The notes beneath the pieces were generated by a model, which saw only the letters and a list, made by a program, of their open reading frames with translations, made no database searches and was not told the DNA's origin. A stretch of 27,668 bases of DNA, taken from a virus. The translations under genes were made by a program, and so were the position numbers. This document shows, piece by piece, positions 9,001-27,668 of this stretch. The DNA is taken from IMG/VR virus record IMGVR_UViG_3300018428_000133, positions 1 through 27,668 of that record. One strand, written 5' to 3'. The first letter of the stretch is position 1. The number at the start of each line of letters is the position of its first letter.

Positions 9001-10419
9001 GTAAAAACACCAGGTGTACTTTATATTAATAAAAATTATGCACTTGGTGATAAAATTACGGTTTATCAGTTTAGTAATCATGATAGTCAAGGAATTGAAA
9101 GACAAAACTTTGATGTAGTTGAAAGAACCACTTTATCACCAGGAGTAAACACAGGAAGCCAAATATTTGTAATAGATGGAAGTACAACAGATTTAAATCT
9201 TTTACCTGCACTTGATCCTAACAAATCTTATGCAGTATTCTTAAATAATGTCAGAAAAGATGATCCTAATTTTGATGGTAGTTCTCCAGTAGCAAATGTA
9301 AATGCAACCTGTAAAACAATCACAGGATCAAGCGCAAGCACAGTTAATATATTAGACGATTTTGGATTTACTACATCTACTGACGATGTAGTAGAAATAA
9401 GAGAAATAGGTGGAACAATTGAACCAGATGAAGGTACTGCTGATTGGTATGAGTTAAGACAACTTAAAGCAGGTTATATAAATCTTAGAACTCCGGCGGT
9501 AGACGACCAGTATGTTTGGGTAGTTAAAAATGGAAATCTACTCAATGCGTCAGTTGATTATGCTATCACAGCAGATAAAACAAGAATTAAATTAGTAGAA
9601 GAACTAGATGATAACGATGTTATAGAAACCTTTCATTTTGCTAATGATACTTTAGCTGCAAAATTTGGTTGGAGCCAGTTCAAAGATATTTTAAACAGGA
9701 ATGTATATAAACGCTTAGATGGAAGCAACAATGTAAGACTTGTTGAACCACTTAATTGGTATGACAAATATATCAATGTAGAAAATAGCGAATCATTACC
9801 AGATCCAGTACCCGGGTCTAAGTATCCTGCTATTGTTTATATAGAAGGAGAAAGAATTGAATATTTTAGAAAAGACGGATCTTATCTAAAACAATTAAGA
9901 AGAGGAACACTAGGAACAGGAGTGAAACCTGTATATGATATTGGAACAGAACTTTATGATATAAGTCAAACATCAACAGTTCCTTATAAAGATGAAACTT
10001 TAACAACTATATTCACAGCAGATGGTACTAGTAATACATATGAGTTAGATTTTACACCAGCAGATCCTAGCAGTAATGGTACAGCAATTGATACTTTTGA
10101 AGTTTTTGTAGCAGGACGTAGATTGCGTAAAACCACACTTGAATCATACGAATTAAATAGTGATGCTAGAACTAATTATGCAACTGAAGCACAAAGCATT
10201 AATCAAGATTCGCCGGAAGGTGATGTCACACTACCAGCAGAATTTTCTCTACAAAACGGCAATGAGCTTGTATTGTTAGAAACACCTGGTGAAAATCAAA
10301 AAGTAATAGTGGTAAGAAAACAAGGAAAGTTATGGAATAGTGCAGGAACACAGCTAAGTAAAGCTGATAGTGATATCAGCAGATTCTTGAGATCAGTATC
10401 CCCTGACTTACCCGGATAA
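1..10419 (+). CDS. Giant virion structural protein (5'-truncated by the window; 3472 residues visible)
   Basis: The frame is open from base 1 to the TAA at 10417-10419, so the gene begins upstream of the window; a GTG at 814 is only an internal codon. The protein resembles the very large beta-rich structural proteins of T4-like marine myoviruses, probably a component of the tail, baseplate or fibre network. Visible residues 1-130 form a helical region including the motif EFYEEWAIKDGQYG, which I recall from these giant proteins. Residues about 361-456 and 1279-1523 contain FG-GAP-like beta-propeller blades (motifs LLAVGAP, LLVGAP, LLAVSAP, KVYIY), separated by a long insertion. Residues 1919-1977 and 2281-2358 carry glycine-rich GxGYxxxP repeats. 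From about 2550 to the end there are repeated GDGST-type beta modules. The C-terminus ends with a K-x-G-x-x-W segment and FLRSVSPDLPG. No enzyme active site, signal peptide or membrane segment is evident. A late promoter box overlaps its stop codon. The structural role is confident; the exact virion position is not. Confidence 0.85.
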   Translation, partial: KPGLYANFDYKINQFADYYDLDSDNFDVEQQRLAQHLIGYQKRQYLENIINDDVSQYKFYQGFILDKGTKNSLTKLFDALASANQDSLEFYEEWAIKDGQYGASEGFEEVEYLLDEKQFRLDPQPIELVDQKTSATDLVYRILPYETYLKSKDYDHKPFPTKYIAKGYTKDSGYVNPQDIDARIGSYNDILSQDFTTLPNQGYVWVGNVNETWNVYQHVATDYKIESIESGTGEFTILLGSTPLDIDTGEILGITDVITTSFDAASPDDSTVQITQTENPLQGFFKVKSVSLNKVVFETNENIAEIENCTGVLTKFISCRKTDIIDANKFAEKEMDPGEKLWIDNDGSGRWVVLQNQNRYTELQEISNTELGTGHEYGKSLSVDDRNVLLAVGAPEVDDGKVYIYNRASNSLNYTLQQVIEADTSIADSGQNFGASVSLSGDGQFLLVGAPKASNVKTNFKGDFDSTQSFAAGDIVREDDSLWSADVAIERAVDNIEFSSFDSVAQINYQINNDTVDREDIPVLLTGDYPFKNITTDHFLIRAPKDMYEGSGVGDQIYLRWNNLSNANQDQIDLVSTSPFGGSNPYITKEYLESADTHTIDIKVDAILFVDASNNIPLVGDTVTTQGATGTVVYTHNEEAQLTIYVGSVNGEFPSENSLFINGNDFVGEYERVGPAETIDTSSVYGGYWFIRTSNPYPIGNVNNDPAYGLVYKDIITAITGGDSTSSTRYYYQSLDYSTSLQNSESVINSYIQSLSFEGSPGPEGNTDPILSSKFVVRVPEALSSVSSPGDEVELYVNNLPDITTTLEFTGLVSLGEGETLTQLVTGATCITVESVTNSTTVKVQRVTGNFDTINLITASSSGTLASTLGGIPVTDKLEDPSSINLAYSITNKKHTIDDIWDGYIAYRNTKFLNGEPFEPLVGQTVRDKSTLATAEVAFYQRSLNDVVIFVKNVSGNFSKGNQFGDNAEIEFLPFISGPDPDVYGRAGIYTVPRVMGQIQRVSLGYTSQGIGKLFVFDAGINVPYTGGSFLFDHQLGAKKVTNILTGDFLYLEPDNNFEYWLYKEENVLGIPRPANRPSSSNLDWTETFKIPTSGSGDVGSFTNEGIYYIYRRTLAGNFLSLGSYVAPERKTNNYVGQNVHIAKSTQDVYRGYVHAPGDGTQVNPGKIYFIKNGTENNVLFNWEYAKNKKFKGEFSDEKTYFIGDIVYLDNKLYNAITNINPGSFDTNQWDSTDDLIDYVGYVPNDTGLIVQNDSSYSAENPFDSTQIASGDSSVLDQGSLYEFASSFDTTPNGEVLVVNAKYGNDKPNLAVIYRIIQGQYLRSQQIAAPSDTEAFAEKVAISNDGKLLAVSAPYDDSQKTNQGKVYIYSLNNGLFEYSQTLLSPLDNKNELFGSVIDFDGNRLLVNARNGDNTETTTFDFYSGRKEGYVLDATSNPNSVSTTFDKEFTKFKENFIDQGSLYIYENVNGNLLYGQQLFYKNENSPVYYFGRNTVLKNNHVYVGLPTVSSNSLFTGTVVDFRLPERSNIYNRLRESKDPVNLEKIKRVILYNRKTNKLLTYLDYIDPIQGKIAGPAEQNLSYKTYYDPASYTVGTGSVVVSPTNSWGPAQVGQLWWNLTNAKFINPYQGNSIYSSNNWSSLFDGNTIDVYEWVESTVLPSKWDQVQSTSETLDRGISGTSLYGDTAYATKQVYDKVSQSLQTYYYFWVKNKKTIPNKEFRTMSSFDVANLISDPKAQGYRFAAFLSNNSFTIYNCDNLLSDDDVAFSVQYWTIDNQQINIHNQYQIITEGLSTSKPNRDIERKWFDSLIGYDEQNKIVPAPDLSPKQKYGILNSPRQSWFVNKQEALKQVIERANIVLKKNLIVDDKSLLKLQLEDPAPTAISRKYDTTVETVAELEFIGVAKAQQASVQLVIEDGVIKDINVLNAGRGYLVAPTYTINGTGSGAEIEFTINNLGVITSATVVKGGSNYSPTDTITVRKYTVLVKNDTSIQGKWALYERDSDLRSWLRIASQSYDVKLFWEYVDWYAENFNEFTETNFVIDNAYELQGLDDELGDIIKINSIGSGGWLLLRKIDVREDVDYTVNYETIGRQNGTIQFKNTLYDTQASATGFDIISFDTEFFDSVPSIEIRQILNAIKQDLFTEELSIEYNNLFFASLRYVFAEQGYVDWAFKTSFVKAKHNVGQLREDITFNNDSLPSYEDYLEEVKPFKTKLREYISAYEKIEDSNSRITDFDLQPSFDDDTKSIKPQDVKVVNNNLIGVNDKLETYPFKNWKDNVGFIVKEIQIADGGKAYTQAPQILLTGGGGSGATAISKLGADGKITKIEITNPGSGYLSAPLITINGTLGEGGRDAKCSVIIGNSLPRSLLNVIKFDRVSGNYLITYLEEAETFMGTGSRYVFDLKWPMDLQSTQVEVVVDNVVLLRSEYSYENVKDTSKTYTRYNGRIILRTPPSNNTSVQVNYKKAVSLLTAQDRINLAYNPSTGQFAKDLGQLMDGVDYGGVEVKSFDFGGPTGWDTGPWFTSEYDTYDTTYEDEVFKLDGSTITLTLNKPLESGVTYNLYKNGVRLDDPDWVDDSTQFTNPNAIMRSIIGDGTQTVIELDELGIPTAADDEIVIRKSTSDGSFLPLPGTYDTLIEGGGLQYDTAQGILAEEINIDGDGFFTPTNSGGPDEQLPGRVFDAVDIKVYERPTTGASKVVSRNYTGDGSTKSFAIGTKPVTKENLFVKVDFSIKKLETDYTINYDTEEVEFTTAPVAGTKVNFVTLEYSGANVLDIDEFIGDGSTGDFLTNVTYTNDMSSLVTIDGETVAHTLVRSNETYASADRVVIRFAEPPALDKVVRFAIFEGQVQNFSTVSIDEFESDGSTTAYTLTQTPFTANPTEWFTIVKINDTILNAGYNQKFTVSDIREYQLKLWQVPVGSVTSDQIRVYLNGNELTYLQDFDLLGAGQFDPALPLGQQSGSTVILNQGIGESGDILRVYILGWDDSTQSGGDYRFGYYNESNEFVKTPGVLYINKNYALGDKITVYQFSNHDSQGIERQNFDVVERTTLSPGVNTGSQIFVIDGSTTDLNLLPALDPNKSYAVFLNNVRKDDPNFDGSSPVANVNATCKTITGSSASTVNILDDFGFTTSTDDVVEIREIGGTIEPDEGTADWYELRQLKAGYINLRTPAVDDQYVWVVKNGNLLNASVDYAITADKTRIKLVEELDDNDVIETFHFANDTLAAKFGWSQFKDILNRNVYKRLDGSNNVRLVEPLNWYDKYINVENSESLPDPVPGSKYPAIVYIEGERIEYFRKDGSYLKQLRRGTLGTGVKPVYDIGTELYDISQTSTVPYKDETLTTIFTADGTSNTYELDFTPADPSSNGTAIDTFEVFVAGRRLRKTTLESYELNSDARTNYATEAQSINQDSPEGDVTLPAEFSLQNGNELVLLETPGENQKVIVVRKQGKLWNSAGTQLSKADSDISRFLRSVSPDLPG
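1081..1368 (+). other. FG-GAP-like propeller blades 1-2 within the giant protein
   Basis: Residues about 361-456 hold two blade-like units, each with the pattern 'YGxSLSxDxxxLLxVGAP...GKVYIY'. This is the hallmark of FG-GAP / integrin-alpha-type beta-propeller repeats. They stop abruptly before an FKGDF module at 1378; the same blade type resumes about 2.4 kb later. The domain assignment comes from motif reading only. Confidence 0.6.
1378..3670 (+). other. Large insertion splitting the propeller, bracketed by similar FKG[DE]F modules
   Basis: The insertion starts with FKGDFDSTQSFAAGDIV (from 1378) and ends with a related module, FKGEFSDEKTYFIGDIVYL (from 3571). Both resemble carbohydrate-binding-type 'GD+V...xxLY/W' beta modules. 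Between them, two pairs of segments are similar: a HFLIRAP...GDQIYLRWNNL unit (about 1608-1700) with a KFVVRVP...GDEVELYVNNL unit (about 2320-2400), and LVGDTV...VGSVNGEF (about 1850-1960) with LVGQTV...VKNVSGNF (about 2760-2880). The insertion therefore looks internally duplicated. Confidence 0.5.
3835..4575 (+). other. FG-GAP-like propeller blades 3-6 within the giant protein
   Basis: Residues about 1279-1523 contain about four further blade-like units. Their motifs include VAISNDGKLLAVSAP, GKVYIYSLNNG, FGSVIDFDGNRLLV and GSLYIYENVNG. Together with the two units at 1081-1368 they would make about six blades, a plausible number for one closed propeller interrupted by the intervening insertion. 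Confidence 0.55.
5755..5931 (+). repeat. GxGYxxxP glycine-rich beta module, copy 1
   Basis: It encodes an NAGRGYLVAPTYTING unit followed by a degenerate second turn, KGGSNYSPTDTITV. This repeat type is common in phage adhesins and giant tail proteins. It is related to the copy at 6841-7075 in the same protein. Confidence 0.6.
6841..7075 (+). repeat. GxGYxxxP glycine-rich beta module, copy 2
   Basis: It encodes ADGGKAYTQAPQILLTGGGG, then a short linker, then NPGSGYLSAPLITING. It has the same two-turn organisation as the module at 5755-5931, which supports duplication of the unit inside the giant gene. Confidence 0.6.
7648..7865 (+). repeat. Duplicated DDP/DDE beta module, copy 1 (giant protein C-terminal region)
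   Basis: Residues about 2550-2620 have the pattern YNLYKNGVRLDDPDW, then N-x-x-A-x-x-x-x-I, then IELDELGIPTAADDEIVIR. The same order of motifs recurs at about 9208-9420, so the two segments look like a diverged internal duplication. Confidence 0.6.
9208..9420 (+). repeat. Duplicated DDP/DDE beta module, copy 2 (giant protein C-terminal region)
   Basis: Residues about 3070-3140 read YAVFLNNVRKDDPNF, then NVNATCKTI, then VNILDDFGFTTSTDDVVEIR. They align by eye along their whole length with the module at 7648-7865. Confidence 0.6.
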
Positions 10420-10440: not shown

Positions 10441-11055
10441 ATGAGCGATAATTTACATGATAAAAGTGGTATACTAGTGAAAGGACATATAAAGATATAT
10501 GATCCTGAAACTAATCACGTGTACATAGACAAAAATAACGCTATTCACTACGAGAATATGAGTATTGCTCTCGCAGATAGTATAGGTAATAGAGGCCAAG
10601 GCTGGATTTATGAAATGAGCTTTGGTAATGGAGGAACTTCTGTAGATCCTACAGGAATTATTACATACCTTACGCCTAACTCTACAGGAACAAATGCAAG
10701 TTTATACAATCAAACCTATACGAAAATTGTTGATGATAATAGTGTTAACAATTTAGATCCTGTAAGAAACAAAATTGAAACAAGACATGTAAGCGGAACA
10801 AATTATACAGACGTTTTAGTCACTTGTTTACTAGATTATGGTGAGCCAAGTGGACAAGATGCGTTTGACACTGCTACTGATCAAAACAGTTTATATGTAT
10901 TTGATGAATTAGGATTAAAAAGTTATTCACCAGATGGAACAGGCAATTTAATTACTCATGTTGTATTCCATCCTGTGCAAAAAAGTTTAAACAGATTAAT
11001 CCAGATAGATTACACAGTAAGAATACAAAGTTTAGCCGGAATAGTTGGAGAGTAG
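10441..11055 (+). CDS. Virion structural protein, 204 aa, function unknown
   Basis: This is a soluble, beta-rich protein with no signal peptide, membrane segment or catalytic motif. The N-terminus reads MSDNLHDKSGILVKGHIKIY and continues with a GHIKIYDPETNHVYIDKNNAIHYENM-like region. Proteins of this kind occur beside tail-fibre genes in T4-like marine phages, where they are annotated only as virion structural proteins. Its place between the giant structural gene and three fibre genes, and its own late promoter box, support a role in the tail or baseplate, perhaps as a fibre connector (inference). The start at 10441 is supported by AGGA at 10430-10433. The gene ends 3 nt before the next ATG, so it is probably co-transcribed with the first fibre gene. 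Confidence 0.75.
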   Translation: MSDNLHDKSGILVKGHIKIYDPETNHVYIDKNNAIHYENMSIALADSIGNRGQGWIYEMSFGNGGTSVDPTGIITYLTPNSTGTNASLYNQTYTKIVDDNSVNNLDPVRNKIETRHVSGTNYTDVLVTCLLDYGEPSGQDAFDTATDQNSLYVFDELGLKSYSPDGTGNLITHVVFHPVQKSLNRLIQIDYTVRIQSLAGIVGE

Positions 11056-16610: not shown

Positions 16611-17570
16611 ATGGCAGTTAGCGTCGGAGATGAAATTCAAGCAGCTCAATATAACGGCTTGCAAAGTAGAGTAGATACAATTCTTGGTGTAGGGTCAGGT
16701 CAAAGCGGTTATGGCCAATCACTAGCAAGTTCACAAGTATCAGTAGGTGCTGTTGTTCAAGCCGCTGACATGGATAATCTTAGAACTGATATAAACAAAA
16801 TTAAAAATCACCAAGCAGGTACTGATGCATCTATAGGCAATATTGCTGTTGGACAAATCATTGGTGCTGATAGAAGTGAAACTAACATAGGTACAGGTGT
16901 TTATCAAACAGACGAAGGTTTTAACGATTATGATACTGCAATTACAGATGTAGAAGGAAACTTATTTGACATTGCAGAAAGTTCTGTGGAAGCAAAACTT
17001 ACCAGCACTAGAAGTACATCATGGGGTGGCGGTGGCGGTGGTACCGTGACACATACATTTACAGTGACTTTTAGTGATGCCAACCAAAGAAGATATTTTT
17101 TCAACAGCGGAGGCGAAATACGTTTCAGTGCAAGTTTAACAGGTAGCTCAGGATCTAAATACAATAATTGGAATACACTGTTAACTAACATGGGTACAAT
17201 TAAGTTTGGATACACAGCTACAACAGCTACAGGATCAGGAACTGCCCAAGCAATTGGTAATTATGATTTGACAACAAGTTATCAAACAATTTTTCAAAAA
17301 AACGGTAGTGGTGTTTATGCAGAAAACCAATATCAACTTGATGCAAGAGCTGACAGCAGCACAGTGCTAAGATTTAGAGTAAGTTTTGAAGATAACGACT
17401 TAGGAGATCAACAACCAGTTGGCCCCCAAGGTATTCAACCAAACCCAGCAGGACCAGCAGTTGACGAACCTGTGACAGGTACACTAACAAGCACTATACA
17501 ACAACTAAGAGCTACTGGATCAAATGTTGAAGTGACGTCACCTGCGTTCTCAACAACTTCAAACCTATAA
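16611..17570 (+). CDS. Virion structural protein, 319 aa
   Basis: The N-terminal third consists of alternating helical repeats of the form VGxxIQAAQYNGLQSRVDTI and VGAVVQAADMDNLRTDINKI, separated by GVGSGQSGYGQSLASSQVS. I recall this GSGQSGYGQ signature from structural proteins of T4-like marine phages. A polyglycine hinge (WGGGGGG, near nt 17025-17040) leads into a beta-rich domain with RRYFFNSGGEIRFSASLTGS. The protein has no enzyme motif and no membrane segment. It is the last gene of the late block, has its own late promoter, and is followed by the sigma70 promoter of the next module. The most likely role is a tail or fibre accessory protein; the exact position in the virion is unknown. 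Confidence 0.75.
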   Translation: MAVSVGDEIQAAQYNGLQSRVDTILGVGSGQSGYGQSLASSQVSVGAVVQAADMDNLRTDINKIKNHQAGTDASIGNIAVGQIIGADRSETNIGTGVYQTDEGFNDYDTAITDVEGNLFDIAESSVEAKLTSTRSTSWGGGGGGTVTHTFTVTFSDANQRRYFFNSGGEIRFSASLTGSSGSKYNNWNTLLTNMGTIKFGYTATTATGSGTAQAIGNYDLTTSYQTIFQKNGSGVYAENQYQLDARADSSTVLRFRVSFEDNDLGDQQPVGPQGIQPNPAGPAVDEPVTGTLTSTIQQLRATGSNVEVTSPAFSTTSNL

Positions 17571-17582
17571 TCACACTAGAGG

Positions 17583-17611
17583 TTGACAAACCCATAATTT
17601 TGTTATATAAT
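17583..17611 (+). promoter_or_regulatory. Consensus sigma70 promoter (TTGACA - 17 bp - TATAAT)
   Basis: TTGACA at 17583-17588 and TATAAT at 17606-17611 are separated by exactly 17 bp, a perfect match to the bacterial housekeeping consensus. It sits in the 67-nt gap between the structural block and the gene at 17638. No late box is present here. The host RNA polymerase would therefore transcribe the downstream module early, before the phage late sigma acts. Confidence 0.9.
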
Positions 17612-17637
17612 TATATGACAAATAAAGGAGTTTTCGT

Positions 17638-17973
17638 ATGGATAAAAGGTTGTTAGACGCAGTTGAATTTGCAAATTATTCAAGAACACTATACAATCAG
17701 AAAAAGTTAGCAAAACAAAAATTTTTAGATGCGTGTATTTTTTATTATAATGCTGGAAAGTTCCATGTAGATATTAATTTGATTACATATTGTATAGATT
17801 TAAAAAATGGCTCTATTCTTTTAGATTCAAATCAAAATCCTATCAAAGTAGAAGATGCAAAAAACTTTTTAGAAAATATAAAAAACTTGTACCATACAGC
17901 TTTACAACAGTATTATGATGAATATACTGAAATAACAAGCAGTAAAACAGTGCAAGGAATTGTTAATGTCTAA
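17638..17973 (+). CDS. Conserved phage-type hypothetical protein, 111 aa
   Basis: This is a small, mostly helical, lysine- and tyrosine-rich protein. It has no cysteine cluster, membrane segment or catalytic motif. I do not recognise a characterised family, although small proteins of similar design (an N-terminal 'LLxAVEFANY' helix and a C-terminal 'YHxALQQYYDEY' helix) are familiar from T4-like marine phages. It is the first gene after the sigma70 promoter and has a strong ribosome binding site (AAAGGAG at 17624-17630, 7 nt spacing), so it should be made early and abundantly. The next gene starts inside its last codons (8-nt overlap). Confidence 0.75.
   Translation: MDKRLLDAVEFANYSRTLYNQKKLAKQKFLDACIFYYNAGKFHVDINLITYCIDLKNGSILLDSNQNPIKVEDAKNFLENIKNLYHTALQQYYDEYTEITSSKTVQGIVNV
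17954..17958 (+). promoter_or_regulatory. Ribosome binding site deciding the start at 17966
   Basis: AAGGA is 7 nt before the ATG at 17966. A TTG at 17960 in the same frame would lie only 1 nt after it, so the ATG is the likelier start. Confidence 0.6.
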
Positions 17974-18775
17974 AGGATGTTTGTTATTTGCATTTAACAA
18001 TGAAAAAATAGACTATGTAAAACAGGCAGTCTATTGTGCAAAAAAGATTCAAAAACATTTAAACGTTCCTGTGTCACTTGTAAGTGATATAGAAGTTGAT
18101 AATCCTGTGTTTGATAAAGTTATAGCTTTTGACAAAGAACTTGCTTACTCGATGAAAACTTATCGAAGTCATACAACTTCTTTTAAACTTTCTTTCAAAA
18201 ATGTTGCAAGGATTTATAGTTATGATTTAACACCATATGATTCTACTCTTGTTTTAGATACAGATGTTTTGATATGTAATAATGAGATTGCAAAATGTTT
18301 TGACAGCAACGCAGATCTTATGATGTATAGTAATGCACAGGATATAGGAAACTATATAGATAAAAAAGAATTTGAATGGATAAGCGATACAGGGTGTAAG
18401 TTTTATTGGGCTACTTGTTTGTACTTCAAAAAAACTAAAACAAATAAATTGTATTTTGATTTAGTTCAACACATTTATGATAATTGGGGATATTATAAAA
18501 CAATTTACCAAATACAAAACGCAGTATATAGAAATGACTTTGCATTTAGCATAGCAGCTCATATTATGAACGATCATTCAAAAGGAGATTTTATAGGCGA
18601 AATGCCTGGCACTTTACATTATTCTATTGATAAAGATATTATTCAAAGTATAAATGAAGACGATTTATTGTTTTTAATACACAATCCACAAAAAGGCAAA
18701 AACTTTTTTCCTGTGCGGACAAAGAATATGACAGTGCATTGTATGAACAAGTTTGATTTGGATAGATTGATATGA
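17966..18775 (+). CDS. Putative GT-A-fold glycosyltransferase, 269 aa
   Basis: It probably transfers a sugar from a nucleotide-sugar donor. Residues 1-40 form a GT-A-like start (CLLFAFNNEKIDYVKQAVYC, VSLVSD), and residues 94-103 carry TLVLDTDVLI. The D98-T-D100 is a DxD-type metal and nucleotide-sugar binding motif. A late HCMNKFDLD (H258) may be the C-terminal metal ligand seen in GT8-like enzymes (inference). There is no signal peptide or membrane span, so it is cytoplasmic. The start at 17966 is chosen over TTG 17960 because of the spacing to AAGGA. The gene overlaps its neighbours by 8 and 4 nt. The next gene is a diverged relative, so the two may act in sequence or together. Acceptor and donor are unknown. 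Confidence 0.72.
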   Translation: MSKGCLLFAFNNEKIDYVKQAVYCAKKIQKHLNVPVSLVSDIEVDNPVFDKVIAFDKELAYSMKTYRSHTTSFKLSFKNVARIYSYDLTPYDSTLVLDTDVLICNNEIAKCFDSNADLMMYSNAQDIGNYIDKKEFEWISDTGCKFYWATCLYFKKTKTNKLYFDLVQHIYDNWGYYKTIYQIQNAVYRNDFAFSIAAHIMNDHSKGDFIGEMPGTLHYSIDKDIIQSINEDDLLFLIHNPQKGKNFFPVRTKNMTVHCMNKFDLDRLI

Positions 18776-19524
18776 AACAAGGATATCTAATATACGCACA
18801 AGGCGACAAACACTTGAGGTATGCTATTGCATGTGCTGAAAGTTTAAAATCTTTTGATCAAAAGCCTATTTGTTTAGTTAGTGATAAAGACATTGCATCT
18901 ACAGTGTTTGATAATGTTGTTGTTGTAGAAAAAAACAGTGATAAGTTTCACGTCAAAAATAGATCAAAATTAATTGAATATTCTCCATTTGAAGAAACTA
19001 CAGTAATAGAAAGCGATTGTTTGATTACACAAAGTTTAGAAAACTGGTGGACAAAAAATAAAGACTGTGACTTAAAATTTATAAGTCAAGCATATACATA
19101 TAGGCAAGAACCTTTAGATATTTCATATGATAGAAAAACTTGGGCACAAAATGATTTACCTAATTTATATGTTGCTTGTCACTACTTTAAAAAGACAGAA
19201 TTTACAAAAAAGTTTTTTGATCTAGTTTACGAAATCAACACAAATGAAGAATTATACAAAGGTCATTTACCTAACAGAAGTCCCAAAGTTCCTAGTATGG
19301 ATGTAGCAATTTGTTTGGCTACAAAATTACTTGATTGCAATAACAAAGTTGCATACACAGGAGATGATCCTATGTTTATACACATGAAACCATATTCTCA
19401 AGGATTAGCAGAGCCTGAAGAAAATTGGTCAGAAAAGTTAGGTTTTTACAAAAACGGTAATGACGTATATATTGCAAATTTTAAACAACAAGGGATTTTG
19501 CATTTTATAGAGGATGTTGTTTAA
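18772..19524 (+). CDS. Putative glycosyltransferase, paralogue of the preceding gene, 250 aa
   Basis: The layout follows the 269-aa neighbour: GYLIYAQGDKHLRYAIACAE at the start, PICLVSD near residue 38, and VIESDCLIT at 78-86 where the neighbour has VLDTDVLI. The DxD position is therefore E80-S-D82, which may change metal or donor binding. Later features include VACHYFKKTEFTKKFFDLVY, similar to the neighbour's ATCLYFKKTKTNKLYFDLVQ, and histidines at 204 (FIHMK) and 244. It is cytoplasmic by sequence. It begins with an ATGA overlap and ends with a 1-nt overlap with the next gene. It is probably a sugar transferase or a catalytically altered partner of the upstream enzyme. Confidence 0.68.
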   Translation: MKQGYLIYAQGDKHLRYAIACAESLKSFDQKPICLVSDKDIASTVFDNVVVVEKNSDKFHVKNRSKLIEYSPFEETTVIESDCLITQSLENWWTKNKDCDLKFISQAYTYRQEPLDISYDRKTWAQNDLPNLYVACHYFKKTEFTKKFFDLVYEINTNEELYKGHLPNRSPKVPSMDVAICLATKLLDCNNKVAYTGDDPMFIHMKPYSQGLAEPEENWSEKLGFYKNGNDVYIANFKQQGILHFIEDVV

Positions 19525-20009
19525 TGTTTGTATATTACAATAGTGAAACTAGAGAAATAACATCAATATCAGCATCACAAAATAGTGAGGGTCCTTTTGT
19601 TGAAAAAGAAAAACAAGAAGTTCAGCCATTTATTGACGGTGAAAAAAATTTCATTGATTATATTATAGATGAACAAAGAAATATAGTAAACAAACACGAA
19701 ACTGTTATACCTTTTGATATAAATCAAAAAATACACAAACTAGAAGAAAGACCAAATGCAGATTTTACAGTAGTGCATACTAAAGATGGCTGGCAGTTTA
19801 AAAAAACATCTAGTGTAAATGATAATTTATATTTTATAATAACAGAAAAAAATAATCCTAATATATTATATAGAACTATGTATTTTTATGCAAGCCAAAT
19901 AGAAAATGAATTTTTAGTTCCTTTTGAAAACAATAAAGAAAAAAATTTAGATTGTAGCATATGGATACTAAACAAAAGTTTTCCTATATGTAGTTTGGAG
20001 ATAAGATGA
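19524..20009 (+). CDS. Hypothetical protein, 161 aa
   Basis: I do not recognise this protein. It is acidic and lysine-rich with a beta-like C-terminal half (NLYFIITEKNNPNILYRTMY, CSIWILNKSFPICSLEIR). It contains no DxD, no cysteine cluster and no membrane helix. Its start codon overlaps the previous stop by 1 nt, and its end overlaps the next gene by 4 nt, so it belongs to the operon. It may be a phage structural or accessory factor for the surrounding transferases, but this is only inferred from position. Confidence 0.65.
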   Translation: MFVYYNSETREITSISASQNSEGPFVEKEKQEVQPFIDGEKNFIDYIIDEQRNIVNKHETVIPFDINQKIHKLEERPNADFTVVHTKDGWQFKKTSSVNDNLYFIITEKNNPNILYRTMYFYASQIENEFLVPFENNKEKNLDCSIWILNKSFPICSLEIR

Positions 20010-22600
20010 GTAGAAAATTTAAAGTTTATGATTATGATATAATTTATCTCAGCTATGATGAACCAAATGCTGAAGAAAACTATTATGATCTAAAACAGCT
20101 TGTACCGTGGGCAAAACGTGTGCATGGTGTAGAAGGTTCAGATGCTGCACACAAAGCCTGTGCTGATTTAGCAGAAACAGAAAGATTTATTACCATAGAC
20201 GGTGATAATAAAATACATCACAGTTTTATAAATGAAATTTTACATTTTAAAGACGATGTAGATTTAAGCAAGTGTGTTGTCAGTTGGAGCGGATACAACA
20301 TTATTAACGGGTTGACATACGGTAATGGTGGGATAAAATGTTGGCCTACAGAAATGGTCAAGCATATGAAAACACATGAAAATGCAGACCCTAACAATTT
20401 AAAAGCACAAGTTGATTTTTGCTGGGATTTACAATATTTACAAGTTGACAAAACTTACAGTTATGTGCATAATAATGCTACACCGCAACAAGCATGGAGA
20501 GCTGGATTCCGCGAAGGTGTTAAGATGAGTTTGATTGAAGGTTTACCAGCAGATCCTAAACAATTTAATGAACAAATACCTAAGAAAAATTTAGATAGAT
20601 TAAAAATATGGGCAACTCTAGGTTCAGATGTAAAGAACGGAAAGTGGGCTGTCTATGGAGCCAGAGAAGGTTGTTATAAAACTATGTGTACTGATTGGGA
20701 TCATGTACATGTAAGAGATTTTGAATATTTAAACAATCTATGGAATACAGAGTACAGTAAGATAGAAGAAGACAAACTTGATTACGAAATCACAGGGTTA
20801 GGATATACACTTAATAACGATCTTGATTTAGGAATACCAGAAGACATCTATGACGAAAAACAAAGCAAGTTTTTCAAAAGTGTATATGTTCCCCCGCAAC
20901 GTACACCCCAAGACTTTCTAACAACAGAAGAATCATCTAATTATGATATTGTAATGATTTCATATAATGAACCTAACGCTGAAAAAAATTGGGAAAATTT
21001 AAAACAAAAATTTCCTCGTGCTAAAAGAGTACATGGTGTAAAAGGAATTCCAAAAGCTCATGTAGAAGCTGCAAAATTATGTACTACAGATTTAATTTGG
21101 ATAGTAGATGGAGATGCAGAAATTGTAAATGATTTTGTTTTTGATTATGTATCTCCTGAACATGAAAAGGACTACGTTAAAGTATGGCGTAGTATCAATC
21201 CTATAAACGGTCTTGAATACGGCTATGGTGGTGTAAAACTATTTCCTAGATTAGCTACACTGAACATGGATATCACAAAACCGGACATGACGACAAGTAT
21301 CAGTAGACATTTTAAACCAATTAAGGTTGTTAGTAATATTACAGCATTTAACACTGATGCGTTTAGTGCTTGGAAAAGCGGTTTTAGAGAATGTTGTAAA
21401 CTAGCTAGTGCTGTTATAGATAGACAAAAGCAAGATGAAACAGACCATAGATTAGACGTGTGGTGTAGTGATGCAGATAACACAATACCATTTTCTAAAT
21501 TTGCTGTTGAAGGAGCAAGAGCAGGTAGAGAATATGGTGAAATTAACAAAGACAATATAGAAAAGCTCAATCTTATAAATGACTTTGACTGGCTAGAGCA
21601 ACAATTTGATTATGCATACTCCAAAGAAGCTATATTAGAGTCAACAATAAAATCTGAAGAAATTGTCGACTTGCTAGATCGTTTTGAATATATGTACGAA
21701 GGACTTAGCGATGTAAGAAGGTTATATAATGATAAAGACATAAGCAGTGTGTTTAAGATAGCCAACAATGAAGAACTACGTAAAGCAGTCGTTGAAAAGA
21801 ATTTACATAGTATCTTTAGAATTATAGGAACCAATGATGATTTACGCAAGGCAGTGCTCGAACATAACTTTTATAGCATGGCACGCCTGTTGCCCGAAGC
21901 AGCAGATGAGTTTAGGTTATTACAAAATGATAAACATGCACTATGGCGTGTTCTAGAAAAATATACAGGAAGTTTATTTGTAAAGCCATTGAAAACTTTA
22001 TACCAAGAAGAAAATTTTGACAAGGATTGTATTAGTAGAGGACAATTAAAAAGTAAAAAATGGTTAGTAGACAAATTAATTCAGTGCAATTTGGATTTAG
22101 GTGTAGTTTTTTTATGTGCAGGTTGGTATGCAACTATTGTTCCTATGATACAAGAAGCAAACATAAAATTTAACAAGATTCGTAGTTTTGATATAGATCA
22201 AGATGTATGGAATATTGCTGAAACTTTTAATAGGCCGCTGACTGCTGACGATTGGCGATTCAAAGCGCAAACATTAGATATTCATGATATTGAATATGAC
22301 AACTTTCATTATTCTACTATAAAGAGTGACGGTAGTATTGAACAGTGCAAAGATAGTGCCAACACAATTATTAATACTAGTTGTGAACATATCCAGAATT
22401 TTAATGATTGGTATAACAAAATACCACAAGGAAAACTTATATGTTTACAAAGCAACAATTATATTGCTATAGATGAGCATGTTAATTGTGTAAGCAGTTT
22501 AGAAGAATTTGCAAAACAAACACCTATGTCAGAACTTTTATATGAAGGTGAATTAGATTTAGAAAAATATAAGAGATTTATGCGAATAGGATACAAATGA
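20006..22600 (+). CDS. Trimodular protein: two glycosyltransferase-like domains plus methyltransferase-like domain, 864 aa
   Basis: Residues 9-250 and 313-540 are tandem copies of one domain. Each has YDI[IV]x[IL]SYxEPNAE, K/RRVHGVxG, a DGD motif (D65-D67; D368-D370) and a NGLxYGxGG[IV]Kxx[PW] signature (101-114; 401-414). They look like GT2-like nucleotide-sugar enzymes. Residues 570-640 hold short helical repeats (EELRKAVVEKNLHSIFRI / DDLRKAVLEHNFYSMARL). From about 675 to the end is a Rossmann-like segment with VVFLCAGWYATI, then IRSFDIDQDVWNIAE, then NTSCEHI (790-796), resembling class I SAM methyltransferases found in phages. A GGAG at 19997-20000 precedes the ATG. It overlaps both neighbours by 4 nt. 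It could assemble and methylate a sugar, but substrates are unknown. Confidence 0.7.
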   Translation: MSRKFKVYDYDIIYLSYDEPNAEENYYDLKQLVPWAKRVHGVEGSDAAHKACADLAETERFITIDGDNKIHHSFINEILHFKDDVDLSKCVVSWSGYNIINGLTYGNGGIKCWPTEMVKHMKTHENADPNNLKAQVDFCWDLQYLQVDKTYSYVHNNATPQQAWRAGFREGVKMSLIEGLPADPKQFNEQIPKKNLDRLKIWATLGSDVKNGKWAVYGAREGCYKTMCTDWDHVHVRDFEYLNNLWNTEYSKIEEDKLDYEITGLGYTLNNDLDLGIPEDIYDEKQSKFFKSVYVPPQRTPQDFLTTEESSNYDIVMISYNEPNAEKNWENLKQKFPRAKRVHGVKGIPKAHVEAAKLCTTDLIWIVDGDAEIVNDFVFDYVSPEHEKDYVKVWRSINPINGLEYGYGGVKLFPRLATLNMDITKPDMTTSISRHFKPIKVVSNITAFNTDAFSAWKSGFRECCKLASAVIDRQKQDETDHRLDVWCSDADNTIPFSKFAVEGARAGREYGEINKDNIEKLNLINDFDWLEQQFDYAYSKEAILESTIKSEEIVDLLDRFEYMYEGLSDVRRLYNDKDISSVFKIANNEELRKAVVEKNLHSIFRIIGTNDDLRKAVLEHNFYSMARLLPEAADEFRLLQNDKHALWRVLEKYTGSLFVKPLKTLYQEENFDKDCISRGQLKSKKWLVDKLIQCNLDLGVVFLCAGWYATIVPMIQEANIKFNKIRSFDIDQDVWNIAETFNRPLTADDWRFKAQTLDIHDIEYDNFHYSTIKSDGSIEQCKDSANTIINTSCEHIQNFNDWYNKIPQGKLICLQSNNYIAIDEHVNCVSSLEEFAKQTPMSELLYEGELDLEKYKRFMRIGYK

Positions 22601-23112
22601 AACAGAATCTAATTGTAATAGATAATTTTTATGACGATCCTGATACTATTAGAACATTTGCTTTAGAACAAGATTTTAATGTAAAAGGTAATTACCCAGG
22701 TAAACGTACAAAAAGTTATCTAAGTGCAGAAGCAAAGGAAAAAATTCAGTCTATACTAGGAGAAGTATCTTGGCACGATATAGATGGTGGTACAGGCAGT
22801 TTCCAATATACTACTGCGTTAGAAACTAGCTGGATACACAAGGATACTACAGAATGGGCAGGAGTTTGCTTTCTCACACCAAATGCACCATTAGACAGTG
22901 GGACAATATTGTTTAAAGATAGAAAAATAGATAATGAAAAAGAAGTTTATGATTTGACAAAATTTGAAAAAGACACTATAATATCAAATGTATACAATAG
23001 GTTAATATTGTATAGAGGAGACCTGTTGCATAAAAGCAATAATTATTTTGGTTTAGATAGAAATGATGCTCGATTGTTCCAAGTTTTCTTTTTAGGAGAA
23101 TTATATGCTTGA
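22597..23112 (+). CDS. 2OG-Fe(II) oxygenase-like protein, 171 aa
   Basis: The size and motif order fit a small 2-oxoglutarate and iron-dependent dioxygenase of the DUF6445-like type. The start LIVIDNFYDDPDTIRTFAL is the typical opening, and YPGKRTKSY follows. The candidate metal triad is H81-x-D83 (WIHKDTTEW) and H145 (GDLLHKS), and R159 (DARLFQVFFL) is placed to bind 2-oxoglutarate. Such enzymes hydroxylate proteins, nucleobases or small molecules. There is no signal peptide. It starts inside the last codons of the 864-aa gene (4-nt overlap) and overlaps the following gene by 8 nt. The family call is fairly firm; the substrate is unknown. Confidence 0.75.
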   Translation: MKQNLIVIDNFYDDPDTIRTFALEQDFNVKGNYPGKRTKSYLSAEAKEKIQSILGEVSWHDIDGGTGSFQYTTALETSWIHKDTTEWAGVCFLTPNAPLDSGTILFKDRKIDNEKEVYDLTKFEKDTIISNVYNRLILYRGDLLHKSNNYFGLDRNDARLFQVFFLGELYA

Positions 23113-23326
23113 GGAAATGACTATTAGACAACTACAGCAAGAATGTGCTAGAGCTCTTTCTACCATGGAAGCAACAAACAACAACATTTACCAGTTTAAT
23201 AAACAAGCATTTCATAATAGCCACAATTGGTATAAAGCAGTAATTACATGGTATATAGAACAATATGGTGACTTACCTAGCAAAACTGGACCTGGTACAA
23301 AAGTAAGGTTGGTTTTAGATGTATAA
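23105..23326 (+). CDS. Small hypothetical protein, 73 aa
   Basis: I do not recognise this gene. The N-terminal half is helical (IRQLQQECARALSTMEATNN), the middle is rich in N, H and W (FHNSHNWYKAVITWYIEQYG), and the end is basic to beta-like (PGTKVRLVLDV). It has one cysteine. The start at 23105 is preferred because AGGAGA lies about 6 nt upstream, inside the oxygenase gene; a downstream ATG at 23117 has a poorer spacing. It lies directly before a SPASM radical SAM gene with an 8-nt overlap. That position is compatible with a modified peptide or an accessory protein, but the sequence lacks an obvious leader and core division, so this remains speculative. Confidence 0.6.
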   Translation: MLEEMTIRQLQQECARALSTMEATNNNIYQFNKQAFHNSHNWYKAVITWYIEQYGDLPSKTGPGTKVRLVLDV

Positions 23327-24383
23327 ATTAGAAGATATAAAAACTATTCATTTGGAAGTCACACAAAATTGTCAAGCAAGTTGTCCTATGTGTGATCGTA
23401 ATATGAATGGCGAAGGAATAAATCCACATATCAATTTAGACGAACTGTCTTATAAAGACTGCACAAAGATATTTAATGCATCCTTTATAAAACAATTAAA
23501 TACTATGTATATGTGTGGCAACTTAGGAGATCCTATTGTTGCAAGAGACACACTTGAAATATTCCAATACTTTAGAACACATAATCCTAACATGTGGTTG
23601 AGTATGAACACTAATGGAGGAGCAAAAGATGTCGACTGGTGGAAAAAACTTGCGATGGTATACGGACGTATGGGTGCTGTTATTTTTAGCGTGGATGGTC
23701 TTGAGGATACTAATCACATTTACAGACAAGGTGTAGTTTGGAAAAATGTAGAACGCAACATGCGAGCATTTATTGATGCTGGCGGCAGAGCTCGTTGGGA
23801 CTTTTTAATTTTTGAACACAATCAGCATCAAGTTGAACAAGCCGAAGCTCTTGCTAAAGAGTGGGGTGTTGAAAAATTTATGAAAAAGAAGACTGGAAGA
23901 TTCATTGACACAAATTCAAATAAAAAAGAAAAGCATCAAGCCAAAGACCGTAAAGGCCAAGATTCGGCAGAACTTAAAAAGCCGGAAGCAAAATACCAAA
24001 ACAAAGCACTTACTAAACAGGAAAAACTTTTAGAAAAATACGGTAGCATGGACAAATACTATGATGCTGTTCCTATTGTTTGTAAGGTAAAACAAGAAGG
24101 CAGTCTTTTTATAACAGCAGAAGGACTTGCTATGCCTTGTTGCTGGACCGCTGGTCGTATGTACAAATGGTGGCATAAAGATCCTAAAGTAGAACAAATA
24201 TGGGATTTTATAGACAAAGATTCTTTAGATGCAAAAAAAGGTTTAGATAAAGTTTTTGCCACAGGTATATTTGAAAATATACAAGACAGTTGGACAAAAA
24301 GTAGTTGTGCAGAAGGTAAACTTAAAGTTTGTGCAACTAAATGCGGTGCAGAATGGGATCCTTTTATGGAGCAATTTAAATGA
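23319..24383 (+). CDS. Radical SAM protein with C-terminal SPASM-type cysteines, 354 aa
   Basis: This is a SAM-cleaving radical enzyme. The iron-sulfur motif is C18-x3-C22-x2-C25 (NCQASCPMCDR). GNLGDP (68-72) and FSVDGLED (123-130) follow as expected for the radical SAM barrel. The C-terminal part carries extra cysteines at C255, C274-C275 (MPCCWT), C330, C338 and C342, consistent with a SPASM domain binding auxiliary clusters. A charged lysine-rich insertion lies at about 197-240. SPASM enzymes usually modify peptides or proteins, but some act on sugars or other substrates. It overlaps the 73-aa gene by 8 nt and the next gene by 4 nt. The class is firm; the reaction is unknown. Confidence 0.88.
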   Translation: MYKLEDIKTIHLEVTQNCQASCPMCDRNMNGEGINPHINLDELSYKDCTKIFNASFIKQLNTMYMCGNLGDPIVARDTLEIFQYFRTHNPNMWLSMNTNGGAKDVDWWKKLAMVYGRMGAVIFSVDGLEDTNHIYRQGVVWKNVERNMRAFIDAGGRARWDFLIFEHNQHQVEQAEALAKEWGVEKFMKKKTGRFIDTNSNKKEKHQAKDRKGQDSAELKKPEAKYQNKALTKQEKLLEKYGSMDKYYDAVPIVCKVKQEGSLFITAEGLAMPCCWTAGRMYKWWHKDPKVEQIWDFIDKDSLDAKKGLDKVFATGIFENIQDSWTKSSCAEGKLKVCATKCGAEWDPFMEQFK

Positions 24384-25174
24384 ATAGATTAGTAGGAAAA
24401 CTAGACAAATCAAAACCAATAATTGCAGTTGTTGGTTGCAGTTATTCACACTGGGACGATGGAGAGTGTTTTTTAGAATCATATCCTGCTCTTATTGCTA
24501 AAAATTATCCAGACTATAATGTAGTAGATTTATCTGCACCTGGATCAAGCAATGATAGTGCATATATGAGATTGTTTCATTTTGAACATTTAACAGGATA
24601 CAAAATTAATAAAGTTTTATTTCAACTTACACACTTTGGCAGAGAGCTTGTATTTTTTGATTGGCGTGTTAAAAACTTTAATTTATGGAAAGAAGGATAT
24701 TATGCAAAAGATAATTATGTTTACACTAAAGGAGATTTTAGTGATGACGTAAATCTAGTGACAGCAACTATAGCTTTTGATCATCCTTGGAGTGAGAGGA
24801 CTAGAAAACTATTAAGTAAACATTTTAAATTAAAAGAAAGTATGCTAACAAGATTTTTTATTACCAAATTTTTAAATGATGAATCCGTATGGAAATTACA
24901 AAAAGAAATTGATTTAGTTAACGGACATTATGGCAAAAATAATGTTTTACTTTACAGCTGGCATAGAAATTTAGATACAACTACAAAAACTGCACGTAAA
25001 GATCTGAAAGTTCCTGCTATGCCTGATAACTATGCTGGTTCTGTAGAAGAATGGATTGGGTTTAAAAGATTTAATAAACTTGGTGTAGACGATGCACCGC
25101 ATTATGACGGAAGAGGTCATCAAATAGTATATAAACATCTAGAACCAATGATAGATAGTTTACTCAAAAATTAA
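24380..25174 (+). CDS. SGNH-hydrolase-like protein, 264 aa
   Basis: It is probably an esterase or acyl-transfer-type hydrolase of the SGNH fold. The nucleophile block is AVVGCSYSHWDDG with S21. G55 lies in SAPGSSNDS, and N58 is a candidate for the oxyanion asparagine. The last block is D238-A-P-H241-Y-D-G-R-G-H (Asp and His of a DxxH dyad, followed by the usual GH). Phage SGNH proteins of this type often act on O-acyl groups of polysaccharides, which would fit the sugar-related neighbours. There is no signal peptide. It starts with an ATGA overlap and is followed by a 16-nt gap, the only gap inside the operon. The fold assignment is moderately sure; the substrate is unknown. Confidence 0.75.
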   Translation: MNRLVGKLDKSKPIIAVVGCSYSHWDDGECFLESYPALIAKNYPDYNVVDLSAPGSSNDSAYMRLFHFEHLTGYKINKVLFQLTHFGRELVFFDWRVKNFNLWKEGYYAKDNYVYTKGDFSDDVNLVTATIAFDHPWSERTRKLLSKHFKLKESMLTRFFITKFLNDESVWKLQKEIDLVNGHYGKNNVLLYSWHRNLDTTTKTARKDLKVPAMPDNYAGSVEEWIGFKRFNKLGVDDAPHYDGRGHQIVYKHLEPMIDSLLKN

Positions 25175-25190
25175 GATAAGTACGTATATA

Positions 25191-26603
25191 ATGACAGATA
25201 AAACTAAAATTTCAGAAACATTTTGTGCTTTACCTTGGCTACACCTTAGCAGTAGACCAGATGGTAAGATGAGAACATGCTGTACGTCAAATGCAAGCAG
25301 TGTGCAAGATCCAGATTCTAATATAAAAATTGGAGGAGGTGAAGTCGGTGTTGTAAAAAATGATGACGGTGTACCAGCAAACTTTAATCACACTTCTTTA
25401 GAAGAAGCATGGAATTCGTCTTACATGCGTAATGTTCGTAAAATGATGTTGCGCGGTGAAAAACCTGCAAGTTGTCTTAAGTGCTACAAGGAAGAAGAAT
25501 CAGGACATTTATCAAAACGTAATTGGGAGACAGAATACTGGGGTCATAGATATGACCTACAACAGTTAGTTGACGAAACTAAAGAAGATGGTAGTATTCC
25601 TCCTAAGATACGCTACATAGATCTTAGAATGGGTACAAAGTGCCAATTAGCCTGTGTAATGTGTAGTCCTCATGATAGTTCGGGTTGGATCAAAGACTGG
25701 CAAGATATGTATCCACAGATACAAAATGAAAAGCTAAAGAACACAAGTGGCTGGCATAACAAAGGACAAAATCACGGAGCAAGTTATAATTGGCATAAAA
25801 ACAATCCACGTTTTTGGAAAGAGCTTATGGAGCAAATTCCACACATGTATCAATTGTATTTTGCAGGCGGAGAAAGTTTAGTAATTGACGAACACTACGA
25901 ACTTCTTGAAGAATGTATCAAGCGTGGACATGCAAAAAATATAGAGCTACGTTATAATTCAAATGCAGTCGAATGGCGAGAAGATTTATTTGACCTTTGG
26001 GCAGAATTTAAACGTGTGCGTTTCCATTATTCAATAGATGCACTAGGTAGACAGAATGATTACATACGCTATCCTAGTCTATGGGATCATCAAGCAGAAC
26101 AAATGTGGAAACTAGATGCTACAGGACCAAATGTTGAAGTCACAACAGCAATAACTATTATGGCTCTTAATATTGCTTATATTCCTGATTTTATTCAATG
26201 GAAAGTTGAACAAGGATTTTCAAAATGGAATAAATGGCCTTTGGGTGCTGGTGGTATAAACATGCACTTTGCATATTGGCCACCTCAATTAAATGTAAAG
26301 ACATTACCGTTAGAACTTAAAAAACAAATTACAGACAAATATGAAAATGAATTTTATCCTTGGCTAAACGAAAACTGGCAAAAGTTTACAGGTGTTAAAG
26401 AAGCAGGTATTACTAAAGAACAATGGCTGAATGCTCCGTACGGTAAAAAACGATATCAAGGTATAATAAATTTTATGAATGCAGAGGATTGGTCAGCACG
26501 TATGCCAGAATTTAAAGAGTGGATAAAGTTAGTTAACAAACAACGTGGCTTTGATGACTTTGAAGAAATATTCCCAATATTCAAAGGAGTTATAAATGAG
26601 TAA
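25191..26603 (+). CDS. Radical SAM protein with N-terminal twitch-type cysteine cluster, 470 aa
   Basis: The protein has two iron-sulfur regions. Residues 1-110 hold an N-terminal cluster-binding region (FCALPWLHLS with C12, C30-C31, and SCLKCYKEEESG with C95 and C98), the pattern of twitch-containing radical SAM proteins. The core motif is C151-x3-C155-x2-C158 (KCQLACVMCSP), followed by FAGGESL (225-231) and a SIDA segment (281-284). The order, auxiliary region first and barrel second, is typical of a family frequent in marine phages whose reaction is unknown. Here the gene follows an SGNH hydrolase-like gene after a 16-nt gap that lacks a strong ribosome binding site, and it overlaps the next gene by 8 nt. 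The next gene is a homologue. Confidence 0.85.
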   Translation: MTDKTKISETFCALPWLHLSSRPDGKMRTCCTSNASSVQDPDSNIKIGGGEVGVVKNDDGVPANFNHTSLEEAWNSSYMRNVRKMMLRGEKPASCLKCYKEEESGHLSKRNWETEYWGHRYDLQQLVDETKEDGSIPPKIRYIDLRMGTKCQLACVMCSPHDSSGWIKDWQDMYPQIQNEKLKNTSGWHNKGQNHGASYNWHKNNPRFWKELMEQIPHMYQLYFAGGESLVIDEHYELLEECIKRGHAKNIELRYNSNAVEWREDLFDLWAEFKRVRFHYSIDALGRQNDYIRYPSLWDHQAEQMWKLDATGPNVEVTTAITIMALNIAYIPDFIQWKVEQGFSKWNKWPLGAGGINMHFAYWPPQLNVKTLPLELKKQITDKYENEFYPWLNENWQKFTGVKEAGITKEQWLNAPYGKKRYQGIINFMNAEDWSARMPEFKEWIKLVNKQRGFDDFEEIFPIFKGVINE

Positions 26604-27668
26604 ATGCACATTTTGTCCTTTACCTTGGAATAGTGTGAACATGCGTAATAACGGTGATTTACGTATATGTTGTAATACAAACAGCTACACAGAAAATAGA
26701 GGAATTTTACGCAAGGAAGATAAAACACCTTTCAATGCTGGTAAAGACGACTGGAACGAAGCAAGAAATTCAAAAGTTCTAAAAGAAGTGCGAGCAGCGA
26801 TGATGAAAGGCGAATGGCATCCTGAGTGCGAAAGATGCAGACAAGAAGAAGTTAATGGTATTAGAAGTCGTAGAGAATATGAAAATGACGATTGGGGAAA
26901 ATGGTATGGTGATATTTCATTAGAAAAAGTTTTGCCTCACACACAAGAAGACGGGACAATCGAAACAGAAAAATTACCAATTGACTTTTTAGATGTTAGA
27001 TATGGTAATTTTTGTAATTTAAAATGTCGTATGTGCGGTCCAACAGATAGTCATCAATGGTACGATGATCATGTTGCAATCTCCGGAGGTACAGGATTTA
27101 GAGACAGTAGCGGTAGAGTGGATCTTGTAAAAAATGAAAAAGGGCGTTGGACTACTGATGTATTTGATTGGTTTCAAAATAATAAAACATATTGGGATAA
27201 TTTTGAAGAACATGCTCCTAATGCAAAAAAACTATACATTGTTGGAGGTGAACCTTTAATAATTGAAGAACATCAAGAAAGTTTAGAACGTTTGGTCGCA
27301 AGTGGAAAGAGTCATCAAATACAACTAGAATATAATAGCAATCTTACAATGGTTCCTGATAGGCTAGTGCATTTATGGGAACAGTTTAAACAAATTCGTA
27401 TTGGTGTAAGTATTGATGGCATAAATGATGTATTTAATTATCAGAGAACACCTGCTAAATTTAGTGCTGTTTATAAAAACATGATGCGATTGCAAGAAAA
27501 TGATAGGATAAATTTAAAGGCATGGTTTGCCTTTACAGTGACTCCATTTAATGTTTTTCATTTGCCTGAGTTTATGAAATGGAAACTAACAGAAAGCGGA
27601 CTTACAAAATTTAATCCTGTTGACGGTGCTAGACCTGTGATAACACCGCATATGTGTCATAGTCCTAA
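26596..27668 (+). CDS. Radical SAM protein with N-terminal twitch-type cysteines (3' end beyond the window; 357 complete codons seen)
   Basis: This is a homologue of the previous protein and is open to the window edge. The N-terminal region has C4/C7 (MSKCTFCPLPWNSVN), C25-C26 (LRICCNT) and C78/C81 (PECERCRQEE). The radical SAM motif is C140-x3-C144-x2-C147 (GNFCNLKCRMCGP), followed by VGGEPLI (GGE at 217-219) and SIDG (272-275). AAAGGAG precedes the ATG and the start overlaps the previous stop by 8 nt. Its longer insertion after the motif (about 150-205) differs from the 470-aa protein. It probably works with its neighbour in the same modification pathway, each enzyme on a related substrate or step (inference). 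Confidence 0.82.
   Translation, partial: MSKCTFCPLPWNSVNMRNNGDLRICCNTNSYTENRGILRKEDKTPFNAGKDDWNEARNSKVLKEVRAAMMKGEWHPECERCRQEEVNGIRSRREYENDDWGKWYGDISLEKVLPHTQEDGTIETEKLPIDFLDVRYGNFCNLKCRMCGPTDSHQWYDDHVAISGGTGFRDSSGRVDLVKNEKGRWTTDVFDWFQNNKTYWDNFEEHAPNAKKLYIVGGEPLIIEEHQESLERLVASGKSHQIQLEYNSNLTMVPDRLVHLWEQFKQIRIGVSIDGINDVFNYQRTPAKFSAVYKNMMRLQENDRINLKAWFAFTVTPFNVFHLPEFMKWKLTESGLTKFNPVDGARPVITPHMCHSP

Follow-up and report, generated by a model that had tools for sequence, protein, structure and literature searches.

A glycosyltransferase and radical SAM gene island of a marine jumbo phage, with a possible role in host-surface glycan remodelling

The IMG/VR record IMGVR_UViG_3300018428_000133 (positions 1-27,668), a linear fragment of 27.7 kb referred to here as the window, ends in a cassette of eleven genes that follows the tail fibre genes of a marine jumbo phage. 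We propose that this cassette is an early-type accessory island that remodels a surface glycan of the infected cell, most likely lipopolysaccharide (LPS), a proposal to which we give about an even chance of being right. Two enzymes resembling family 8 glycosyltransferases (GT8) and a protein with tandem GT-A domains would add sugars, which a fused methyltransferase, a 2-oxoglutarate (2OG)-Fe(II)-oxygenase-like protein and an SGNH enzyme would cap or trim by methylation, hydroxylation, or acyl removal or transfer. C-H chemistry on the sugars (epimerisation, dehydrogenation, deoxygenation) would fall to the radical S-adenosylmethionine (SAM) proteins, on the model of the SPASM/twitch enzymes BtrN and NeoN, which act on aminoglycoside rings. 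The changed surface would block superinfection or the re-adsorption of progeny.

The cassette (17638-27668) lies downstream of the fibre gene fib319 on the + strand, its genes overlapping or almost abutting, and is preceded by a promoter:

17583..17611, + strand: sigma-70 type promoter, TTGACA-17-TATAAT, perfect consensus, 26 nucleotides 5' of h111
17638..17973, + strand: h111, conserved protein of 111 amino acids, first gene of the cassette
17966..18775, + strand: GTa, GT8/glycogenin-like glycosyltransferase (alternative TTG start at 17960)
18772..19524, + strand: GTb, paralogue of GTa, GT8/glycogenin-like (PHROG_1903 match)
19524..20009, + strand: h161, variable protein of 161 amino acids
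20006..22600, + strand: GT-GT-MT, two GT-A domains, a helical region and a class I methyltransferase, 864 amino acids
22597..23112, + strand: 2OG-Fe(II)-oxygenase-like protein (DUF6445 / PHROG_1644)
23105..23326, + strand: h73, small conserved protein upstream of rSAM354
23319..24383, + strand: rSAM354, radical SAM protein with CxxxCxxC
24380..25174, + strand: SGNH-type hydrolase or acyltransferase
25191..26603, + strand: TwA, N-terminal-twitch radical SAM protein, NF033640
26596..27668, + strand: TwB, second NF033640 radical SAM protein, incomplete at the contig end

Gene families were assigned by profile and structure comparison. A 41-member GTa/GTb profile matched glycogenin-1 (GT8) in the PDB with E 2.4e-6 over ~99 positions, and D82 of the DxD motif was invariant across the 41 sequences; neither protein, searched alone, matched Pfam Glyco_transf_8. 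The GT-GT-MT protein gave no match in a PDB sequence search. In a structure model of all 864 residues (pLDDT 83.5), residues 654-864 adopt a class I methyltransferase Rossmann fold, aligning with NodS over 162 residues (Z 15.9, root-mean-square deviation 2.6). The front two thirds matched the two-domain chondroitin polymerase K4CP in Foldseek (E 3e-6, with a low whole-model TM score), and the N-terminal part consists of two similar halves with a DGD motif in each. A profile of the SGNH protein matched thioesterase I, an SGNH enzyme, with E 9e-4; the protein carries the motifs GCSYS (block I) and DAPHYDGRGH (block V), and G19, S21, D237 and H241 were invariant in 8 relatives. For the 2OG-like protein, family matches were limited to DUF6445 and PHROG_1644, and the HxD...H...R pattern was read by eye.

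All three radical SAM proteins reached 30.3-34.8 bits against PF04055 in a six-frame search, above the 29.5 cut-off, while in a second Pfam search two of the three were borderline at 28.5-29.0 bits. TwA (415.7 bits, E 2e-124) and TwB (306 bits, E 4e-91, despite its missing C-terminal end) are members of NF033640 (N_Twi_rSAM), an NCBIfam family with no assigned function and a curated cut-off of 170 bits for the full protein. At 38.4 bits rSAM354 falls below this cut-off and belongs to another radical SAM subfamily; TwA had no match in a PDB sequence search. A preceding sequence-only reading had described a co-directional set of two GT-A-like transferases, two further GT-like domains fused to a methyltransferase-like domain, a 2OG-like oxygenase, an SGNH esterase-like enzyme and three radical SAM proteins. 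Every gene that it named is present, and its glycosyltransferase, methyltransferase and SGNH calls all held in the comparisons above; its inventory needs extending by h111, h73 and h161, and the third radical SAM gene is cut off at the contig end.

The promoter is conserved with the cassette. Among 63 distinct regions upstream of h111 orthologues, 53 contain a site matching the consensus at 11 or more of 12 positions, always with a 17-nucleotide spacer, compared with none of 63 after shuffling. Within 100 nucleotides upstream of the other genes of the window the best score was 10/12, and for the structural genes 9/12. Across the genome of a 306-kb relative (G009) such sites number 44, compared with 10 in shuffled sequence, and one of them, at 277427, lies just 3' of the fib319 homologue. 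These data support an early-type assignment of the cassette at the promoter level. Early expression, as the sequence-only reading had it, would follow from the general pattern in T4-like phages, on which our reading of such promoters as early is based.

A link between NF033640 genes and the host surface is suggested by the cultured Vibrio phage K566. In its genome two GT8 genes that score above the Pfam cut-off and a GT4-like gene lie interspersed among NF033640 genes, and the cluster adjoins a gene for LpxC (E 1.3e-40), which catalyses the committed step of lipid A synthesis. Judged from sequence, the K566 cluster (L165:10464-23250) is likely a lipid A/LPS remodelling cluster. A neighbour of its LpxC gene was annotated PagP by the depositor, which Pfam did not confirm. 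The window and K566 share the interleaving of NF033640 radical SAM genes with GT8 genes; they differ in that the K566 cluster lies beside lipid A genes and not tail genes in the stretch seen, and the proteins are 20% identical. BLASTP detected no similarity between GTb and the GT4-like protein of K566. Phage KVP40 also carries related radical SAM genes, one of them two genes away from a Glycos_transf_1 gene. Of the two products that had been suggested for the cassette, a modified fibre and an altered host surface, we favour the latter because of the GT8 and LpxC context in K566 and the separate early-type promoter. Several observations weigh against this choice: the cassette lies directly 3' of the fibre genes in every relative, which fits virion decoration too; the window encodes no complete sugar-nucleotide pathway; LpxC was not found in the marine jumbo phage records checked; and SPASM/twitch radical SAM proteins act on peptides more often.

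At least 329 stretches in IMG/VR are related to the GT-GT-MT protein and 105 to TwA, while only 1 and 3, respectively, of 50,697 cultured-phage records are. The backbone order fib319, h111, GTa, GTb, GT-GT-MT, h73, rSAM354, TwA was kept in 84/84 to 113/113 loci per neighbouring pair, counts that are not independent, as some loci overlap or are near-identical, and the cassette adjoined fib319 at all 84 loci. Between the backbone genes lie variable insertions, comprising extra radical SAM genes, glycosyltransferases and SGNH-like proteins. Among 131 island representatives of relatives, Pfam identified UDP-glucose dehydrogenase, NAD-dependent epimerase, cytidylyltransferases and carbamoyltransferase, and also Asp/Arg hydroxylase, nitroreductase and FkbM methyltransferase. 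The suggestion that the cassette encodes a decorating pathway gains from the dehydrogenase, epimerase, cytidylyltransferases, carbamoyltransferase and FkbM methyltransferase among these, as well as from the confirmed domain calls, and its product would be a modified glycan. Fifteen longer related records contain 6-21 NF033640 matches each, and loci of at least 19 kb have a median of 6 radical SAM genes, so that the three in the window are at the low end. In alphaproteobacteria, by comparison, NF033640 is rare: it was found in 1 of 289 sampled genomes, a genome bin with the genes on two contigs. In many relatives (e.g. L060, L063, L070) the fusion at 20006-22600 is split, with radical SAM genes between the two glycosyltransferase domains and the flanking order unchanged. 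One island gene of a relative (L109:925-1965) appears amidinotransferase-like by its N-terminal sequence alone, which a family search has not confirmed.

The structural genes upstream of the cassette are informative about the phage:

1..10419, + strand: giant baseplate/structural protein, end part, 3472 amino acids inside the window
10441..11055, + strand: s204, conserved structural gene, marker of a jumbo-phage clade
11059..17570, + strand: tail/fibre genes tf671, tf643, tf505 and fib319, the upstream border of the cassette
16611-17570, + strand: fib319, last fibre gene before the cassette

The giant protein is homologous to gp180 of Agrobacterium phage Atu_ph07 and to the giant virion protein of Sinorhizobium phage Phosso (BLASTP E 5e-33 to 5e-35). 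The s204 protein is 55-56% identical to its counterparts in these two phages, with Rak2-like jumbo phages next, and comparison of tf505 indicated the same kinship. The longest of the related marine records have 306 and 330 kb, and Gp23 capsids are encoded in several. From the s204 and tf505 matches together with the genome size and capsids of its relatives, the source of the window is assigned to the T4-like Rak2/Polybotosvirus group of jumbo phages, as a marine member. The two largest records (G008, 330 kb; G009, 306 kb) represent uncultured marine jumbo phages akin to Atu_ph07 and Rak2 and have 14 and 16 NF033640 matches; since the island of G009 runs across both record ends, that genome is circular or circularly permuted. 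A pelagimyophage origin was rejected, since the matches of the structural genes are to Phosso and Atu_ph07, and the cultured pelagimyophage Mosig has no NF033640 match.

Islands of this class are already known as host recognition clusters, with their chemistry unassigned. In pelagimyophages the cluster is a hypervariable island next to VrlC and the tail fibres that contains glycosyltransferases, GT8 being the commonest, and radical SAM cassettes (PMC7029224). The window resembles it in having an island with glycosyltransferases and radical SAM genes beside a giant baseplate/VrlC protein and fibres; of the VrlC-to-gp14 arrangement that delimits the cluster, the baseplate protein, fibres and glycosyltransferases lie in the window and the gp14 end beyond it. 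It differs in its Rak2/Polybotosvirus clade, its fixed backbone, its conserved early-type promoter and the presence of up to 21 NF033640 matches in relatives. A change of the host surface has been proposed for comparable glycosyltransferase clusters of pelagimyophages (PMC7029224) and jumbo cyanophages (PMC7824862), proposals that leave the radical SAM chemistry unnamed. The earlier statement that no characterised pathway has this composition agrees with the open literature, in which we found none, and is to be qualified by the fact that the class of island was known. Phage arrays of radical SAM genes, described elsewhere as highly unusual (PMC12390700), are without an assigned role. Our comparisons separate two kinds, an early-type array with NF033640 and glycosyltransferase genes (the window, K566), which points to host-surface chemistry, and an array coupled to the tail motif described below; both can now be tested directly.

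In Phosso and Atu_ph07 the slot 3' of the giant baseplate protein, s204 and the tf505 homologue is occupied by a cupin gene, a radical SAM gene, a gene for a protein of ~300 amino acids and further radical SAM genes. The C-terminus of this protein, named CHxS after its repeat, reads CHTSCHASCHSSRSRR in Phosso and CHSSCHASCHNSRSRR in Atu_ph07. Genes for such proteins include:

L179:25415-26335: CHxS protein of Phosso
L180:23119-24009: CHxS protein of Atu_ph07, gp170 (RefSeq tag)
L271:10060-10620, L272:10025-10561 and L184-L256: further CHxS proteins

A DNA-pattern scan of IMG/VR, whose loci partly overlap, identified 41 proteins of 170-300 amino acids that end in a CHxSCHxSCHxSRGRR-type tail. 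A same-strand radical SAM gene was present near 40 of the 41, and in 34 cases a radical SAM gene ends within -16 to +11 nucleotides of the CHxS start, consistent with translational coupling. Pattern matches without a C-terminal tail had no radical SAM genes, with two exceptions (L199:2486-3433 and L233:1-1239), where a Peptidase_S74 chaperone (44.8 bits) or a Hint domain (58 bits) comes after the motif. Domains of these two types process themselves, and their removal may leave the motif at the C-terminal end of the mature protein here too. In 32 aligned CHxS proteins the invariant columns were confined to the tail; the pattern had preselected C, H and most S of the tail, and not the SRGRR end. 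The tail was borne out by cases found independently of the pattern, namely Phosso, Burkholderia phage S13 and Pseudomonas phage pPa_SNUABM_DT01; in S13 and pPa_SNUABM_DT01 the CHxS block also contains cupin and 2OG genes. The alphaproteobacterial genome bin that carries NF033640 also has a CHxS locus; the occurrence of such loci in cellular genomes, estimated by a pattern scan of genome contigs, is a lower bound.

The family corresponds to PHROG_35144, of unassigned function. Its nearest NCBIfam match, weak at E 0.012, is TIGR04135, the radical SAM-modified FibroRumin target, a ribosomally synthesized and post-translationally modified peptide (RiPP), and none of 250 PDB chains compared with the protein body reached Z 2. 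CHxS cassettes resemble the HxsA/HxsB/HxsC, FibroRumin and CXXX-repeat systems in having a short C-terminal Cys/His/Ser repeat beside SPASM-type radical SAM genes, but the carrier is a phage protein of 170-300 amino acids rather than a small peptide. The published virion-protein-rich cluster of Atu_ph07, coding sequences 170-215 (PMC6102473), begins at gp170, which suggests that gp170 is present in virions. On sequence grounds, RiPP-like maturation of a virion protein is probable at the CHxS loci. We think the balance tips moderately towards the specific version in which, in these relatives and in phiKZ-like Burkholderia and Pseudomonas phages, a coupled SPASM-type radical SAM enzyme, assisted by cupin and 2OG partners, modifies the invariant CHxSCHxSCHxSRGRR tail. 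If so, we know of no earlier case of RiPP-like maturation in a virus particle; gp170 and its homologues are named substrate candidates in cultured phages that can be handled in the laboratory. Phage radical SAM genes of this type have been listed as accessory or unusual (PMC11898562, PMC8066314, PMC12390700); a search of the open PMC literature found no paper that mentions the tail or substrate, and none that describes the cassette at this slot.

The CHxS system bears on whether the target of the window cassette is the fibre of the phage itself, the glycosyltransferases glycosylating, and the radical SAM and 2OG enzymes hydroxylating or crosslinking, fib319 or another tail protein so that receptor binding is altered. 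We regard this as unlikely, though deserving of serious attention: the position next to fib319 is fixed, and in the corresponding slot of Atu_ph07 and Phosso radical SAM genes stand on either side of a gene whose protein has a strictly conserved Cys/His/Ser tail and, as gp170, opens a cluster rich in virion-protein genes. However, a separate early-type promoter precedes the cassette, and the radical SAM families differ, as BLAST gave no match between the window proteins and 120 radical SAM proteins from CHxS loci. The CHxS module (a tail beside KTTETC-type radical SAM and cupin genes) is absent from the window and related marine records, whose fibres and small proteins also lack Cys repeats. 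The sole match to the DNA pattern among them, in G009 (TGCCACTGGTGTTGCCACTGGTGTTGC), reads CHWCCHWCC and was rejected as CHxS. In fib319 there was neither a conserved C-terminal nor a Cys-rich motif, and profile comparison of fib319 with the CHxS protein gave a weak match (probability 31%). Because the window's own group is without the motif, the CHxS cassette is a sister system occupying the equivalent slot and does not explain the window; that the window cassette is itself a protein-maturation device for its own fibre we consider quite improbable.

Two further explanations dispense with a surface glycan. Production of a diffusible secondary metabolite or RiPP against rival cells or phages, with h73 or h111 as precursor, would fit the rule that gene clusters rich in radical SAM genes usually make RiPPs, and a halogenated metabolite cluster has been proposed for jumbo cyanophages (PMC7824862). 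It would also fit the position of h73 upstream of rSAM354 in 73/73 distinct pairs (no more than 50 nucleotides apart in 32). However, h73 and h111 are conserved from end to end and have neither a variable core nor a Cys/Trp-rich tail, the window genes include several glycosyltransferases and neither a transporter nor a leader peptidase, and we judge this explanation very improbable. There is a slightly better, still small, chance that the cassette is a loose collection of unrelated early genes at a tolerant insertion site with no common product. The inserts do differ strongly in content among relatives, but the order of the backbone is constant and the content narrow, restricted to glycosyltransferase, SGNH, methyltransferase and radical SAM genes.

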